Shown here piece after piece: positions 52,503-58,986 of a stretch of 64,000 bases of DNA (its first letter is position 1; every line of letters starts with the position of its first letter). The DNA comes from an uncultured Thermomicrobiaceae bacterium. Its GTDB lineage: Bacteria > Chloroflexota > Chloroflexia > Thermomicrobiales > Thermomicrobiaceae. The notes below the pieces were generated by a model. The model was not told the DNA's origin, made no database searches, and saw only the letters and a program-made list of their open reading frames with translations. The position numbers and the translations under genes are program-made. The DNA is taken from positions 62,001 to 126,000 of the forward strand of contig CALKCJ010000038.1 of NCBI GenBank assembly GCA_938082375.1. The letters run 5' to 3'.

Positions 52503-52531
52503 CGGCGCATAGCGAGAGCCTGCGGTGAGTG

Positions 52532-53347
52532 ATGACACTCACAGTTCGGCAGGTCGCGATGCTGGTAGCCCTCTTCGTGGCCACCAGCACGACGCTGATC
52601 CTGCTCGATCACCAACAGCGCCTGGACGCGGTGAAGGGGCCAGTGAACCGCCTGGCCCGGGCGGTCGAGTGGTCCCTCTCCCAGGCACTCGATGAGGCAC
52701 CCTGGGCCGGACGCGGCAACCAGAGCGAGCTCCAGGCTGAGCTGGAGGCGCTGCGCGCCGAGCGAGATCGGCTGCTCGCCGAGAATGCTCGCCTCAAGCA
52801 GCTCGAGCGGGAAGTCGCGCAGCTCCGCCAGCAGCTCGGCTTCAAGCAGCAGAACCCGAGCCTGACCCTCGTGCCCGCCAACGTGATCGCCTATGACCCT
52901 GGCGCGCTGCAGCAGGCGATCGTGATCGACCGCGGGGCTGACGACGGCATCGAGGTCGGCATGCCGGTGGTCAGTCCGGATTTCCTGGTCGGCTTGGTCA
53001 CCGAGGTCGAGGCCGACCGCGCTCGGGTCACGCTGCTCATCGACTCGAGCATGCAGATCGGCGCACTCCTCCAAGACAGCCAAGCCGAGGGTATCCTCTA
53101 CGGCCAGTGGCAGCGCGGCGGGCTGCTGGAACTGCGACATCTCGATCCGAAGACGCCGGTGCGCGAGGGCGCGCTAGTCGTCACCTCGGGCCGCACCGCG
53201 CGCGTCCCGGCTGGGCTGGTGATTGGAACGGTCTACGGGGGGCAGCGCGAGGTCGAGGCGAACGAGCTGCGGCTCGCGGTGCGGCCGCTGGTAAACTATA
53301 AGACGCTGCGTTCGGTCAGTGTGATCCTCGCCGGTAAAGACCAGTAG
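52532..53347 (+). CDS. mreC: Rod-shape protein MreC
   Basis: A 271-residue bitopic protein. It has an N-terminal membrane helix (VAMLVALFVATSTTLILL), a coiled coil (residues about 60-110, AELEALRAERDRLLAENARL), and the MreC beta-domains with VIAYDPGALQQAIVIDRGAD, VVSPDFLVGLVTEVEADRA, then VREGALVVTSG. It scaffolds MreB with the elongation enzymes on the outer face of the membrane. The start is ATG at 52532, directly preceded by an in-frame GTG. Confidence 0.92.
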   Translation: MTLTVRQVAMLVALFVATSTTLILLDHQQRLDAVKGPVNRLARAVEWSLSQALDEAPWAGRGNQSELQAELEALRAERDRLLAENARLKQLEREVAQLRQQLGFKQQNPSLTLVPANVIAYDPGALQQAIVIDRGADDGIEVGMPVVSPDFLVGLVTEVEADRARVTLLIDSSMQIGALLQDSQAEGILYGQWQRGGLLELRHLDPKTPVREGALVVTSGRTARVPAGLVIGTVYGGQREVEANELRLAVRPLVNYKTLRSVSVILAGKDQ

Positions 53348-53350
53348 AGC

Positions 53351-54739
53351 ATGGATCCTCGACTAAGCCTGGCAGTGGGGGTGAGCCGCCTGAGTGCGAC
53401 GGCGATTCGCCGGCTGGGGTGGGGCGGTGGCACCGCCCTGCCGGGGCTCCTAGCCAGCCTGGTCGACCCCGCGGCGCTCAGCAAGCTGAGCCGCCAGCTC
53501 CCGGCTGGCTGCGTCGTCGTCGCCGGTACGAACGGCAAGACCACAACAGCGCGGATGCTGGCCACAATCCTGAAGCAGGCCGGGCACCGGGTGGTGCATA
53601 ACCGCGCCGGCTCGAACCTCGTGCGCGGCATCACGGCCGCGATCGCCGAGCAGTCGTCGCTGCTCGGTCGGGTGCGAGGCGAGATCGCGGTGCTCGAAGC
53701 AGACGAGGCGGCTTTCCCCGCCGTGGTGCGTCAGACGAGCCCGCGCATCGTCCTACTGCTCAACTTATTCCGCGACCAGCTCGACCGGTACGGCGAGCTG
53801 GACACCGTGGCGCGGACTTGGGGCGAAGCCCTGACCGCACTACCGGCCGCCAGCATCGTCGTCAACGTCGACGATCCCGCGCTGGCGGCGCTGACCGACC
53901 AGCTGGCCAGCCGGCGTCTCACGTTCGGCCTGGCCGAGCAGCGCTGCGCGCTCGACCAGCTGCCGCACGCGGCCGATGCGGCGGTCTGCCGCCGCTGCGG
54001 TACGCCGCTCACCTACCGGGCTGCCTTTCTCTCTCACCTGGGCGACTACTGGTGCCCCGGCTGCGGCTTCGAGCGCCCCCCACTCGACGTCGCCGCCCGA
54101 GCGATCGCGCTCGAGGGGCTGGAGCGCCTCTCATTCGAAGTGGCAGCGCTTGGCCAGCAACCCTGGCGGGTGGACATCGCGCTCTCCGGGCTCTACAACG
54201 TGTACAACGCCTTGGCTGCCGTCGCTGCCGCCCAGGCGCTCGGGATCGCACCCGAGCTGATCCGAGCCGGTCTCGCGGCCACGCGGGCCGCCTTCGGGCG
54301 GCTGGAGCGGGTGTGCTACCGTGACCGCTCGCTCGTGATCGTGTTGATTAAGAACCCGACCGGGCTGAACGAGGTCGTGCGGATGCTGACCAGCGCACGG
54401 ATCGAGGCGCCGCTGCTGATCCTCATCAACGACCTCGACGCCGACGGGCGGGATGTCTCCTGGCTCTGGGACGCCGACCTTGAGCCGCTGGCCCAGACCG
54501 GCAGTCCAGTCTTCACCGGTGGGATACGTGGGGCGGACATGGCGCTGCGGCTGAAGTACGCTGGTTTCCCCGTGGAGCGCCTGCGTGTGCTCGACGACCT
54601 GCCTGGCGCGCTCGATGCCTTCGTGAGCGAGCTGGCTCCCGGCCAGACCGGCTACATCCTGCCAACGTACACCGCCCTGCTCGCGCTGCGCCGGGCACTG
54701 GCCGAGCGCGGCGTGGCGCCGGCCTTCTGGCGGCAGTAG
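53351..54739 (+). CDS. murT: Lipid II glutamate amidation ligase subunit MurT
   Basis: A 462-residue Mur-ligase homologue. The P-loop is VVVAGTNGKTTTARML, followed by NRAGSNLVRGI and EIAVLEADEAAFP. A Cys4 zinc site unique to MurT is inserted at residues about 212-237 (VCRRCGTPLTY and YWCPGCGFERP). The C-terminal DUF1727 region contains KNPTGLNEVVRML and LILINDLDADGRDVSWLWD. MurT works with GatD to convert D-glutamate of lipid II to D-isoglutamine. The gene lies 3 bases after mreC and 10 bases before gatD. Confidence 0.94.
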   Translation: MDPRLSLAVGVSRLSATAIRRLGWGGGTALPGLLASLVDPAALSKLSRQLPAGCVVVAGTNGKTTTARMLATILKQAGHRVVHNRAGSNLVRGITAAIAEQSSLLGRVRGEIAVLEADEAAFPAVVRQTSPRIVLLLNLFRDQLDRYGELDTVARTWGEALTALPAASIVVNVDDPALAALTDQLASRRLTFGLAEQRCALDQLPHAADAAVCRRCGTPLTYRAAFLSHLGDYWCPGCGFERPPLDVAARAIALEGLERLSFEVAALGQQPWRVDIALSGLYNVYNALAAVAAAQALGIAPELIRAGLAATRAAFGRLERVCYRDRSLVIVLIKNPTGLNEVVRMLTSARIEAPLLILINDLDADGRDVSWLWDADLEPLAQTGSPVFTGGIRGADMALRLKYAGFPVERLRVLDDLPGALDAFVSELAPGQTGYILPTYTALLALRRALAERGVAPAFWRQ

Positions 54740-54749
54740 GAGGCGAGCG

Positions 54750-55478
54750 ATGGAGCTGACGATCTGCTGGCTCTATGCTCGGACGATGAACATCTACGGT
54801 GACCGCGGCAACGTGCTGGCGCTGGCACAGCGCTGCCGCTGGCGCGGGATCGAGGCGCGGGTGATCGAACTCGGCGTGGGCGAGCCGCTGGAGCCGGGCC
54901 GCTACGACATCTTCTTCTGGGGTGGTGGGCAGGATCGCGAGCAGGTGGCCGCAGCGCACGACTTGCAAGGACCGAAGGGCGAGACCTTACGGTGTGAGAT
55001 CGAGGAGGGAGCGCCGCTGCTGGCGATCTGTGGCGGCTACCAGCTCCTCGGCCGCTTCTACCGGCCACAGCGTGGCGAGCTCCTGCCCGGCCTCGGTATC
55101 TTCGACGCCTGGACGGAGGCCGGATCACGCCGGATGATCGGCAACGTCGTGGTGGAGAGCGAGGAGTTCGGCGAACTGGTGGGCTTCGAGAACCACAGCG
55201 GCCGCACCTTCCTGGGGCCGAGGGCCCGGCCCCTGGGCCGCGTGCGGATCGGCTGGGGGAACAACGGCGAGGACAAGACCGAAGGGTGCCGCTACCGCAA
55301 CGCGATCGGCTGTTACTTGCACGGCCCCGTTCTGCCGAAGAACCCGCAGCTCGCCGACTTCCTGATCGAAGCCGCCCTCCGGCGCCGCTACGGCGAGATC
55401 GCCCTCCTCCCACTGGACGATACCCTGGAGCGGGTGGCCCAGAGCTCAGCCGTACGCCGCGCCCAGGCGACCCGATAG
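54750..55478 (+). CDS. gatD: Lipid II glutamine amidotransferase GatD
   Basis: A 242-residue class I glutaminase-fold protein. ARTMNIYGDRGNVLALAQR is the characteristic GatD/CobQ-like start. The nucleophile Cys94 lies in LLAICGGYQLLG and the catalytic His near residue 191 in GCYLHGPVLPKNPQLADF. VGFENHSGRTFLG is also typical. It supplies ammonia from glutamine to MurT for amidation of D-Glu in lipid II. The last codon lies three bases from the stop of the convergent selenoprotein gene. Confidence 0.95.
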   Translation: MELTICWLYARTMNIYGDRGNVLALAQRCRWRGIEARVIELGVGEPLEPGRYDIFFWGGGQDREQVAAAHDLQGPKGETLRCEIEEGAPLLAICGGYQLLGRFYRPQRGELLPGLGIFDAWTEAGSRRMIGNVVVESEEFGELVGFENHSGRTFLGPRARPLGRVRIGWGNNGEDKTEGCRYRNAIGCYLHGPVLPKNPQLADFLIEAALRRRYGEIALLPLDDTLERVAQSSAVRRAQATR

Positions 55479-55481
55479 CCG

Positions 55482-56837
55482 TCACACCTGCTCGGCAACC
55501 TTGCGCGCCGCGATCAGGAGCGGATCCCAGACCGGCGAGAAGGGCGGCGCGTAGGCGAGATCCAGGTGTATGAACTCGTCGACCCGCATGCCGGCATGCA
55601 GCGCGGTGGCCACGACGTCGATCCGCTTGCCGGCTCCTGGGCCGCCGACGATCTGCGCACCGAGCAGCCGGCCGCTGCCCTTCTCAGCGAGCAACTTGAC
55701 CACGACCCGCGCGGAATCGGGGTAGTAGCGCGCCCGCGTATGGTCTTCGATCCGGGCGACGCCGTACTCGAAGCCGAGTGCCTGTGCCTCGCGCTCGTTC
55801 AGGCCTGTCCTCGCAATCTCGCTCTGGCCGAACTTCGTGATGGCGGTGCCGACGACGCCGGGGAAGCGGGCATAGCCGCCGCCGATGTTGATCCCGCAGA
55901 CTCGCCCCTGCTTGTTGGCAGTAGTGCCGAGCGGGATGTAGGCCGGTCGGCGGCTCACCAAGTGGAAGGTCTCGGCGCAGTCGCCGGCCGCCCACACGCC
56001 GGGGATGCCAGTGCGCATCCGGTCGTCGATCCGCACGGCGCCGCTCTCCCCAAGCGGGAGGCCAGCCTGGGCCGCCAGTTCGGTGCGCGGCTGCACCCCG
56101 ACCCCAAGGACGACCAGGTCGGCCGGGAGCGTCCGCCGGTCGGTCTCCACGGCTCGCACCCGCCCACTGGTCGCATGGAAGCCGGTCACGCGCTCGCCGA
56201 GGTAGACCTCTACGCCTGCCTCGCGCAGCGCCGCCGAGACCAGCGCGCCCATGTCCGAGTCGAGCGTCCCCATCACCTGCGGGCCGAGCTCGACCAGCGA
56301 GACCGCGAACCCGCGGGCGACGAAGGCCTCGGCCATCTCGATGCCGATGTAGCCGCCGCCGACGATCGCCACCCGCTGCGGGCGCTCGCGCTCGACGACC
56401 TCACGCAGCCGGAGGCCGTCCGCGAGCGTCGCGACGCCGTAGATGCCCTGGGCGTCGGCGCCGGGCACCTCCAGCCGGCGGGGCGCAGCCCCGGTCGCGT
56501 AGACGAGCTGGTCGAAAGGTTCACGGTAGGTCGTGCCGTCGACCAGGCGGCGCACCATGACGACACGCGCCGCGAGGTCGATGGCGACGATCTCGTGGCC
56601 GAGGCGGACGTCGATGCCGCGGCGGCGGTGCTCCTCAGGCGAGCGGGCAATCAGCGCGTCCTCGTCGTCGACCAGACCGGCGACGTAGTACGGGATGCCT
56701 CAGGCGGAGTACGAGGTGTGCTGTCCACGCTCGAAAGCGATAATCTCCAGGTCGTCGCGCATCCGACGGGCCTGCGCGGCGGCACTCATCCCAGCCGCAT
56801 CGCCGCCGACGATGACGAGTCGCTCTTTCGTCGCCAT
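55482..56837 (-). CDS. FAD/NAD(P) disulfide oxidoreductase with UGA at the redox-active Cys (probable selenoprotein)
   Basis: Read from the ATG at 56837 (GAGAGGAA seven bases upstream), the gene encodes 451 residues, the usual size for CoA-disulfide reductase / NADH oxidase-like flavoproteins. FAD binding: LVIVGGDAAGMSAAAQARRM. NAD(P) binding: RVAIVGGGYIGIEMAEAF. FAD closure: IPGVWAAGDCAET. C-terminal dimer domain from about residue 330. Codon 46 is UGA (56702-56700) inside SYSA-stop-GIPYYVAG. In relatives that position is the single redox-active cysteine (SYSACGIPYY). Both sides are in the same frame with no other stop, and an apparent SECIS hairpin follows. A selenocysteine at residue 46 is therefore the best reading; a recent nonsense mutation is the alternative. 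Confidence 0.85.
56666..56685 (-). promoter_or_regulatory. Bacterial SECIS-like hairpin after the in-frame UGA
   Basis: Starting 15 bases after the UGA, the mRNA can form a 7-bp stem: CGUCG pairs with CGACG and CC with GG, with one bulged U and a GGUCU apical loop. The loop starts 22 bases after the UGA, inside the 16-37 base window known for bacterial SECIS elements. In E. coli fdhF the codons in the loop are also GGU CUG, there 19 bases after the UGA, with a bulged U in the stem. The hairpin lies inside the coding sequence, as expected for bacteria. Confidence 0.75.
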
Positions 56838-56914
56838 GTACCGGTTCCTCTCCAGGTACCCGAGCACGATCGTACCTTTGGTCGCCATCCTACCACGATC
56901 GCGAGCGATCGCCG

Positions 56915-56975
56915 CCCTCACCACCAGCCCCCTCTCCCACGCAGTGGGAGAGGGGTGGCGAAGCCGGGGTGAGGG
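56915..56975. repeat. Nested palindrome, REP-like, in the 56838-57231 gap
   Basis: CCCCTCTCCCAC at 56929-56940 pairs perfectly with GTGGGAGAGGGG at 56944-56955 around a GCA loop. An outer pair, CCCTCACC (56915-56922) and GGTGAGGG (56968-56975), extends it. This type of CTCTCCC/GGGAGAG element with flanking CCTCACC/GGTGAGG recurs as a dispersed palindromic repeat in many GC-rich genomes. The remaining 394 bases between the divergent oxidoreductase and recN genes show no gene. Confidence 0.65.
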
Positions 56976-57231
56976 AGGAAAGGGTGCGGTGTAAGGGCCG
57001 CGGCGGTGCCGAAGCTGGGGTGCGAGCTGGCGCGCCAAAGTTTCCGACAGACCAGACCCCTACCGCTCTCCTCTCCCGGGTAGCGAGACGACGAGCCCCC
57101 GGGCGCCACCCAGCGACGAGCGCTCCTGCCTCGCCTGCCACCCTCCCGTACAATTGCTGATGAGTGGTTCTGACCGGTGCCCTGTACGACCGCGCTCGCC
57201 CCAGCGGCGGCGTGCAGGCGAGCGAGGTAGC

Positions 57232-58986
57232 ATGCTCCGAGAACTGGCGATCCGCGACCTCGCGATCATCCGCGAGCTGCGCCTGAGCTTCGAGCCGGGG
57301 CTCAACGCGCTCACCGGCGAGACCGGCGCTGGCAAGTCGATCATCATCGACGCGCTCGGTGCCGCGCTCGGCGCGCGCGCCTCGGCCGACCTCGTCCGCA
57401 CGGGCGCGAGTAAAGCTTGGGTCGAAGCGGTGTTCGATGTGAGTCACCTTCTGGAGCGAGAGGACATCCGCGCCCTCCTCGACGAGGCTGGGGTCGAGCC
57501 CGAGGACGGACTCTTGATCCTGGCCCGCGATATCAGCGCCAGCGGACGGAGCACCGCGCGGGTGAGCGGGCGCACGGTGCCGCTCTCCATCCTAGCCGAG
57601 ATCGGGCGCCGGCTGGTCGACATCCACGGTCAGAGCGAACACCTCTCGCTGCTGCGGGCAGAGGTCCAGCTCGACCTGCTCGACCGTTTCGCCGGTACCT
57701 GGCCGGAGCGGCAGCAACTGGCGGAGCTGGTGCGCGAGTACCGGCGAACCTGGCGCGCCTACACCCAACTTGTGACCGAGGAGCGCGAGCGGGCGCAACG
57801 AGTCGACCTGCTCCGCTTCCAGGTACAGGAGATCGCGGCAGCCCGGCTGCGACCGGGCGAGGAGGAAGCACTCGCCCGCGAGCGGGCGATCCTGGCGAAC
57901 GCCGAGCGCCTGGCCACGCTCGCCCGGGAGGCGTACGACCTCCTGGCCGGCGGCGAGGGCGAAAGCCGGCTCGCTGCCCTCGATGCGCTGCGGCTCGTCG
58001 GCGCGCGGTTGGAAGAGCTTGGCCAGCTCGATCTCGAGCAACACCCGCTGGCCGGCCAGGTGCTGGAAGCGACCTACGCGCTGGAAGAGGTAGCACGAGA
58101 GCTGCGCCACTACGCTGAGTCGATCGAAGCCGATCCCCAGCGGCTGGCTGCGGTCGAGGATCGGCTAGCGCTGATCAAGCAGCTCAAGCGCAAGTACGGC
58201 GCGACGGTCGAGGAGGTGCTGGAGCACGCCCGGCGTGCGGCCGCGGAGCTGGAGCGACTCGACACCAGCGAGGAGGAAGCCGCGCGGTTGCGTGAGCAGA
58301 TTGAGCAGCTGGCTCAGGAGATCCACCAACGTGCCGAGCGGCTCTCGCAGCAGCGGCGCCAGCGGGCTGCCGAGCTGGAACGGCAGGTCGAGGACGCGAT
58401 GCGGGCGCTCAACATGGGTCGGGCCACGTTCGAGGTCGCCTTCAGGCGGACGAGCGAGAGTAGCTCCGACCGGCTCGGCGTGGACGAGAGCGGCGTCGAC
58501 CGGATTGAGTTTCTCATCGCCCCGAACGCCGGCCAGGAGCCACGGCCGCTGGCGCGCATCGCCTCGGGCGGTGAAACCGCCCGGCTGATGCTGGCCATCA
58601 AGTCGATCCTCTCCGCAGTCGACGAGACCCCCACGCTGGTCTTCGACGAGGTGGACGTCGGGATCGGCGGCCGCAGCGGCCAGGTGGTCGGCGAGCGGCT
58701 CTGGTCGCTGACCGACCGGCACCAGGTGATCGTCATTAGCCACCTGCCGCAGATCGCCGCCTTCGCCGAGGCGCACTTCCGCATCGCCAAGGAAGAGGTG
58801 GGCGGCGTCGCCGAGACGCGGGTCGACCGTCTCTCCGAAGCGGAGCGGATCGACGAGCTGGCAGCGATGCTCGACGGCCTGCCGGTCACGCCGGAGTCGC
58901 GTGCCAACGCCGAGGCGATGCTCGAGCGTGTACGCCACCTGAAGGCACGGCGGGTACCGCTGGCCAGCGCGCGCGCCCGGCCTTGA
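57232..58986 (+). CDS. recN: DNA repair protein RecN
   Basis: A 584-residue SMC-like ATPase. Start ATG at 57232, because the family opening MLRELAIRDLAIIRELRLSF begins there. Walker A is LTGETGAGKSIIIDALG near residue 33. A long coiled-coil middle runs over residues about 150-390. The signature IASGGETARLMLAIKSIL and Walker B TLVFDEVDVGIGGRSGQVVG lie near the C-terminus, followed by VIVISHLPQIAAFAEAHF. RecN acts early in double-strand break repair by holding DNA ends. It is divergent from the selenoprotein gene. Confidence 0.95.
   Translation: MLRELAIRDLAIIRELRLSFEPGLNALTGETGAGKSIIIDALGAALGARASADLVRTGASKAWVEAVFDVSHLLEREDIRALLDEAGVEPEDGLLILARDISASGRSTARVSGRTVPLSILAEIGRRLVDIHGQSEHLSLLRAEVQLDLLDRFAGTWPERQQLAELVREYRRTWRAYTQLVTEERERAQRVDLLRFQVQEIAAARLRPGEEEALARERAILANAERLATLAREAYDLLAGGEGESRLAALDALRLVGARLEELGQLDLEQHPLAGQVLEATYALEEVARELRHYAESIEADPQRLAAVEDRLALIKQLKRKYGATVEEVLEHARRAAAELERLDTSEEEAARLREQIEQLAQEIHQRAERLSQQRRQRAAELERQVEDAMRALNMGRATFEVAFRRTSESSSDRLGVDESGVDRIEFLIAPNAGQEPRPLARIASGGETARLMLAIKSILSAVDETPTLVFDEVDVGIGGRSGQVVGERLWSLTDRHQVIVISHLPQIAAFAEAHFRIAKEEVGGVAETRVDRLSEAERIDELAAMLDGLPVTPESRANAEAMLERVRHLKARRVPLASARARP

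Follow-up and report, generated by a model that had tools for sequence, protein, structure and literature searches.

The closest described relatives of the gene reported here are flavoproteins of the CoA-disulfide reductase, persulfide reductase and NADH oxidase group, whose solved members carry one catalytic Cys and a tightly bound CoA and reduce di-, per- and polysulfides (PMC6026696, PMC7969121). Selenocysteine (Sec) forms have been listed repeatedly: Zhang et al. reported one Sec 'NADH oxidase' from Geobacter metallireducens in 2006 (PMC1794560), the GOS study of marine metagenomes added one Sec member, assigned to PRK09564, in 2008 (PMC2398784), and reviews name the FAD-dependent oxidoreductase (CoA-disulfide reductase / NADH oxidase) WP_011365774.1 with the motif UGxP (PMC9312934, PMC13188914). 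The sequence-only reading of the present DNA overstated the novelty of the Sec form, which catalogues of bacterial selenoproteins have included since 2006 (PMC1794560, PMC9312934, PMC13188914).

With this in view, we analysed a gene in a 64,000-nucleotide stretch of DNA from an uncultured Thermomicrobiaceae bacterium (the window). Judged from its sequence and from that of its relatives, the gene at 55482–56837 (minus strand) almost certainly encodes a selenoprotein, with Sec insertion predicted at codon 46. Its UGIP motif fits the listed UGxP at the catalytic position of the known Sec family (COG0446), and the Sec genes of Geobacteraceae show the homology expected within that family (59–61% identity to the window protein over its length). 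The Thermomicrobiaceae are a family for which no earlier report of a Sec CoA-disulfide-reductase-like protein was found in open-licence papers, where looking for a comparable selenoprotein in Thermomicrobium also returned nothing specific. The features of the locus are as follows.

55482–56837, minus strand: gene of the predicted Sec-containing, CoA-disulfide-reductase-like flavoprotein (translation, Pfam, AlphaFold model and structure matches)
56700–56702, minus strand: in-frame UGA, codon 46, with predicted Sec replacing the catalytic Cys (homologue codons)
56838–56860, minus strand: GGAGAGG, resembling a ribosome-binding site, 5' of the ATG (read from the sequence)
56666–56685, minus strand: putative bacterial SECIS hairpin, nucleotides +15 to +34 after the UGA (fold, homologue comparison and published constraints)

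The in-frame UGA and its conservation

When the TGA is taken as a residue, the frame translates into a product of 451 amino acids with Sec at residue 46. As the sequence-only reading had described, it runs from an ATG at 56837, preceded by GGAGAGG, to 55482 and contains a single internal TGA, codon 46 (56702–56700), in the context HTSYSA-U-GIPYY; the terminal codon of the frame is also TGA. In the homologue alignment this position corresponds to the active-site Cys of CoA-disulfide-reductase-like flavoproteins. The same reading's claim that the UGA lies exactly at the catalytic Cys is upheld by 80 of 80 homologous loci, which have TGA (33), TGC (38) or TGT (9) at the aligned codon and no other.

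The same TGA is found in three close relatives, Thermomicrobiaceae Tumba bin 21 (aligned protein 96% identical), HRbin32 (89%) and Thermalbibacter longus, an isolate (90%). Furthermore, codons 47–450 show a dN/dS of 0.14–0.15 against the copies of close relatives, indicating strong purifying selection and hence a coding constraint that persists 3' of the UGA. An ordinary stop, left by a nonsense mutation in a pseudogene, or an assembly error would be the conventional explanations of such a codon; TGA is indeed common as a stop in the source genome, and without recoding it would terminate the product at 45 amino acids. Yet independent assemblies, one of them the isolate genome, retain the identical TGA, which therefore is no sequencing error, the downstream sequence of close homologues shows no decay, TGA recurs at this very codon in other phyla, and the conservation of the SECIS element (see below) also argues against a pseudogene. 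Pseudogene and assembly error are thus ruled out by conservation and dN/dS, and their probability is practically nil. That a chance nonsense mutation is unlikely, as had been argued from the window alone, agrees with the sole internal stop falling on the catalytic codon and recurring in many independent genomes.

The SECIS-like hairpin and predicted Sec decoding

A SECIS-like hairpin, previously proposed to lie right after the UGA, is present at nucleotides +15 to +34, and it is the comparison with homologues that lends it significance. The window hairpin, CGUCGCC-GGUCU-GG(U)CGACG (−8.1 kcal/mol), forms 7 bp with one bulged U and the loop GGUCU, its apical loop lying 21 nt past the UGA. It satisfies the constraints published for bacterial SECIS elements (stem of 4–16 bp, loop of 3–9 nt, G within the first two loop positions, spacing of 16–37 nt, MFE ≤ −7.5; PMC13188914), which are passed by 37 of 38 Sec loci vs 4 of 62 Cys loci. 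Folded alone, the window region gives no signal (z of 0.12 over 61 nt), and the 20-mer is not unusual (z of −1.67). Sec loci have their hairpin at this one fixed position, with UGUCGGC-CGGGUU-GUCGACA in Geobacter-type loci and CGUCGGC-AAGGUU-GUCGACG in Syntrophus-type loci. Among 33 distinct Sec sequences, 6.73 of the seven pairs are formed on average, vs 5.31 expected after synonymous resampling of these sequences and 4.05 in 60 Cys sequences; when folding is scored against codon resampling, z is −1.06 for Sec vs +0.09 for Cys sequences (Mann–Whitney p 2e-7). The p values overstate independence, since the loci share ancestry and include a few duplicates from a single genome, and the tested hairpin position was picked on the Sec set. 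For the Thermomicrobiaceae clade, in which the codon-resampled z is positive in five of the six closest sequences, support for the SECIS element thus comes from the hairpin being shared and from its agreement with the published constraints, and not from excess stability. Just 3' of the UGA, 2 of 13 codons vary synonymously in Thermomicrobiaceae, a level matched by 34 of 439 windows in this low-powered comparison.

The source genome (3.36 Mb, 99.97% complete) encodes SelA (532 bits), SelB and SelD (368 bits) together with a tRNA-Sec (SelC; 73.5 bits, anticodon TCA). All four components sought at the suggestion of the sequence-only reading were therefore found in one genome. The SelD gene contains an in-frame TGA in SCAG-U-AGKL (motif CAGU); it is truncated at a contig edge (L010:1-60, contig start), and its product is itself a predicted selenoprotein. 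A SelW-like (Rdx) protein with a CTSU motif and an in-frame TGA (L125:1490-1740, minus strand) is a further predicted selenoprotein, and two formate-dehydrogenase-alpha-like (FdhA-like) genes (L118 and L119), both scoring under the TIGR01591 cut-off, have an in-frame TGA in ARI-U-HSSTVPGLG. In this partial census, the other TGA-bearing genes of the genome hence comprise at least SelD, the SelW-like gene and the two FdhA-like genes, which serve as internal positive controls for Sec decoding.

The UGA might instead be read non-specifically, or as Trp or Cys through a near-cognate tRNA, given that the identity of the residue as Sec is deduced and that the Sec/Cys exchange between homologues implies merely the need for a chalcogen at this position. 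Against this stand the complete Sec system, the presence of other classical selenoproteins in the same genome, a SECIS element that follows the TGA state across loci, and the use of TGA as a stop elsewhere in the genome, so that we regard such a reading as highly improbable. A genome-wide reassignment of UGA, also considered, is unlikely because TGA is the ordinary stop of 7 of the 14 window genes checked. We thus retain Sec as the predicted residue at codon 46.

In a 150-genome sample of the class, five genomes contain a TGA copy of the gene, and a tRNA-Sec is found in five of five. Over the wider set, tRNA-Sec occurs in 26 of 33 TGA genomes vs 28 of 40 Cys genomes, and the seven of 33 TGA genomes missing a strong match are all MAGs. 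As Cys genomes often have a tRNA-Sec and these seven MAGs show no strong match, the presence of a tRNA-Sec does not tell the two states apart when distant genomes are compared.

Enzyme group and putative mechanism

The protein matches the Pfam families Pyr_redox_2, Pyr_redox and Pyr_redox_dim (dimerisation domain), and its AlphaFold model (23-row alignment) has a pLDDT of 91.7. Both the structure and the sequence rankings are led by CoA-disulfide reductases (CoADR) and persulfide reductases: 6ruz, annotated as NADH-dependent CoA disulfide reductase, is the best solved sequence match (394 bits) and superimposes with a Z of 49.2 (1.9 Å, 440 residues, 45% identity), followed by the Pyrococcus CoA persulfide reductase 4fx9 (Z 49.1) and Bacillus anthracis CoADR 3cgb (Z 48.0). 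U46, Y371 and Y429 align with Cys42, Tyr367 and Tyr425 of B. anthracis CoADR, of which we take the two tyrosines to be active-site residues, and Y371 and Y429 are invariant across 23 homologues. In terms of mechanism, a single catalytic Cys/Sec with this Tyr pair is the CoADR arrangement, and the alignment places it in the window protein. The scores stay below the cut-offs of the NCBIfam CoA-disulfide reductase equivalogs TIGR03385 (446.5 vs 578.8 bits) and NF007123 (420.1 vs 458 bits), cut-offs that are also missed by four Sec relatives (Geobacter, Syntrophus) and one Cys relative, and the exact activity is therefore left unassigned. A Pfam search of the 451 residues detected no rhodanese domain, which sets the protein apart from the CoADR-rhodanese (Npsr) type. 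The best explanation of these data is a homodimeric FAD/NAD(P)H enzyme of 451 residues belonging to the CoA-disulfide reductase / persulfide reductase / NADH oxidase group (COG0446).

Within this group, the selenoprotein could act as an NADH oxidase or peroxidase that reduces O2 or peroxide, and not as a disulfide or persulfide reductase. Water-forming NADH oxidases and NADH peroxidase have the same fold, matching at Z of 44–47, a few units lower; the Geobacter protein was named NADH oxidase in the literature (PMC1794560), and the nearest solved homologue, 6ruz, bears that term as well. However, persulfide reductases also show NADH oxidase side activity (A. fulgidus Npsr, PMC7969121), and both the order of the rankings and the invariance of the two tyrosines aligned with the CoADR pair speak against an oxidase, which we hold to be a possible but rather unlikely function. 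Reduction of di- or persulfides is the reading we prefer.

We thus propose a mechanism in which SelB with Sec-tRNA(Sec) would bind the hairpin just 3' of the UGA and insert Sec at codon 46. If it works as its Cys counterparts do, NAD(P)H would reduce FAD, which in turn may reduce a Sec46-S-CoA selenenyl sulfide at the FAD si face. The resulting selenolate, with bound CoA and with Tyr371 and Tyr429 of the other subunit, would then reduce a substrate that is presumably a di-, per- or polysulfide. The predicted Sec at the catalytic position plausibly gives an unusually reactive enzyme, as had been suggested from the sequence.

Comparison of the gene neighbourhood between the window and T. longus offered no functional clue. 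A flank with MreC, MurT and GatD is common to the window (52529–58986) and to T. longus (L015), while the opposite flank holds RecN in the former vs Dxs-GidB in the latter. This difference suggests that a rearrangement broke the gene order immediately upstream of the gene.

Sec/Cys exchange and comparison with known enzymes

In a tree of 98 proteins, a quick build with some long branches (L101, L107) that leave the exact count uncertain, the Sec rows require nine state changes, at least five of them forced by well-supported branches. A topology uniting all Sec rows in one clade is rejected (p-AU 1.2e-7); therefore, Cys and Sec have been exchanged repeatedly. The window's Sec clade is separate from Geobacter; with modest support (87), it joins another Sec gene and Cys genes from the same bacterial family (f1). 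Probably, Sec and Cys were swapped repeatedly at one catalytic position in at least Chloroflexota, the Desulfuromonadia/Syntrophales type and the Eisenbacteria type, the SECIS element being gained or lost each time; with sister genera of Thermomicrobiaceae bearing Sec or Cys and all decoding Sec, a factor beyond the Sec machinery would set the residue, for instance the substrate or exposure to oxygen.

Some relatives deserve separate mention. A second genus of the same bacterial family (g2; L100, L102-L106) has the Cys version, and a tRNA-Sec is present in most of its genomes; two (G049, G124) have no strong tRNA-Sec match, one of them being only 62% complete. Syntrophus-type Sec relatives (L027, L032, L037, L053-L056, L074) have U-S-I-P in place of the listed UGxP.

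In summary, our analysis adds a wider Sec family than the one listed, a conserved SECIS element, and related Sec and Cys enzymes inside one bacterial family. Known so far from a single Geobacter protein (2006) and a single sequence from a marine metagenome (2008) in the lists, the family proves to be widespread, and the thermophilic Chloroflexota lineage gains a clear selenoprotein, for which the gene at 55482–56837 needs recoding-aware annotation. The most useful part is the repeated Sec/Cys exchange among closely related Sec-decoding hosts, whose Sec and Cys versions form a matched set for asking what benefit selenium brings to a single-cysteine flavin reductase.

Compared with known enzymes, the protein shares its core fold with the NADH-dependent persulfide reductases of the CoADR-rhodanese fusion type (3nta, 3icr, 6pfz), but their C-terminal rhodanese domain is absent from its 451 residues. 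B. anthracis CoADR (3cgb) and Pyrococcus horikoshii CoA disulfide/persulfide reductase (4fx9, 5l1n) resemble it in being single-domain proteins without rhodanese, with a conserved Tyr pair and one catalytic Cys in the place of U46, and differ in being Cys enzymes with 38–40% identity to it. The NADH oxidase / NADH-dependent CoA disulfide reductase of Thermus thermophilus (6ruz), its top solved match in both sequence and structure, likewise has Cys where the window protein has the predicted Sec. It is with Geobacter metallireducens WP_011365774.1, matched here by its listed motif, that the likeness extends to the predicted Sec itself: UGxP in the list corresponds to UGIP in the window, and many Geobacteraceae loci have TGA at the aligned codon. 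Unlike these, the window gene comes from Thermomicrobiaceae (Chloroflexota) and represents a separate Sec clade beside Cys genes of its own family.
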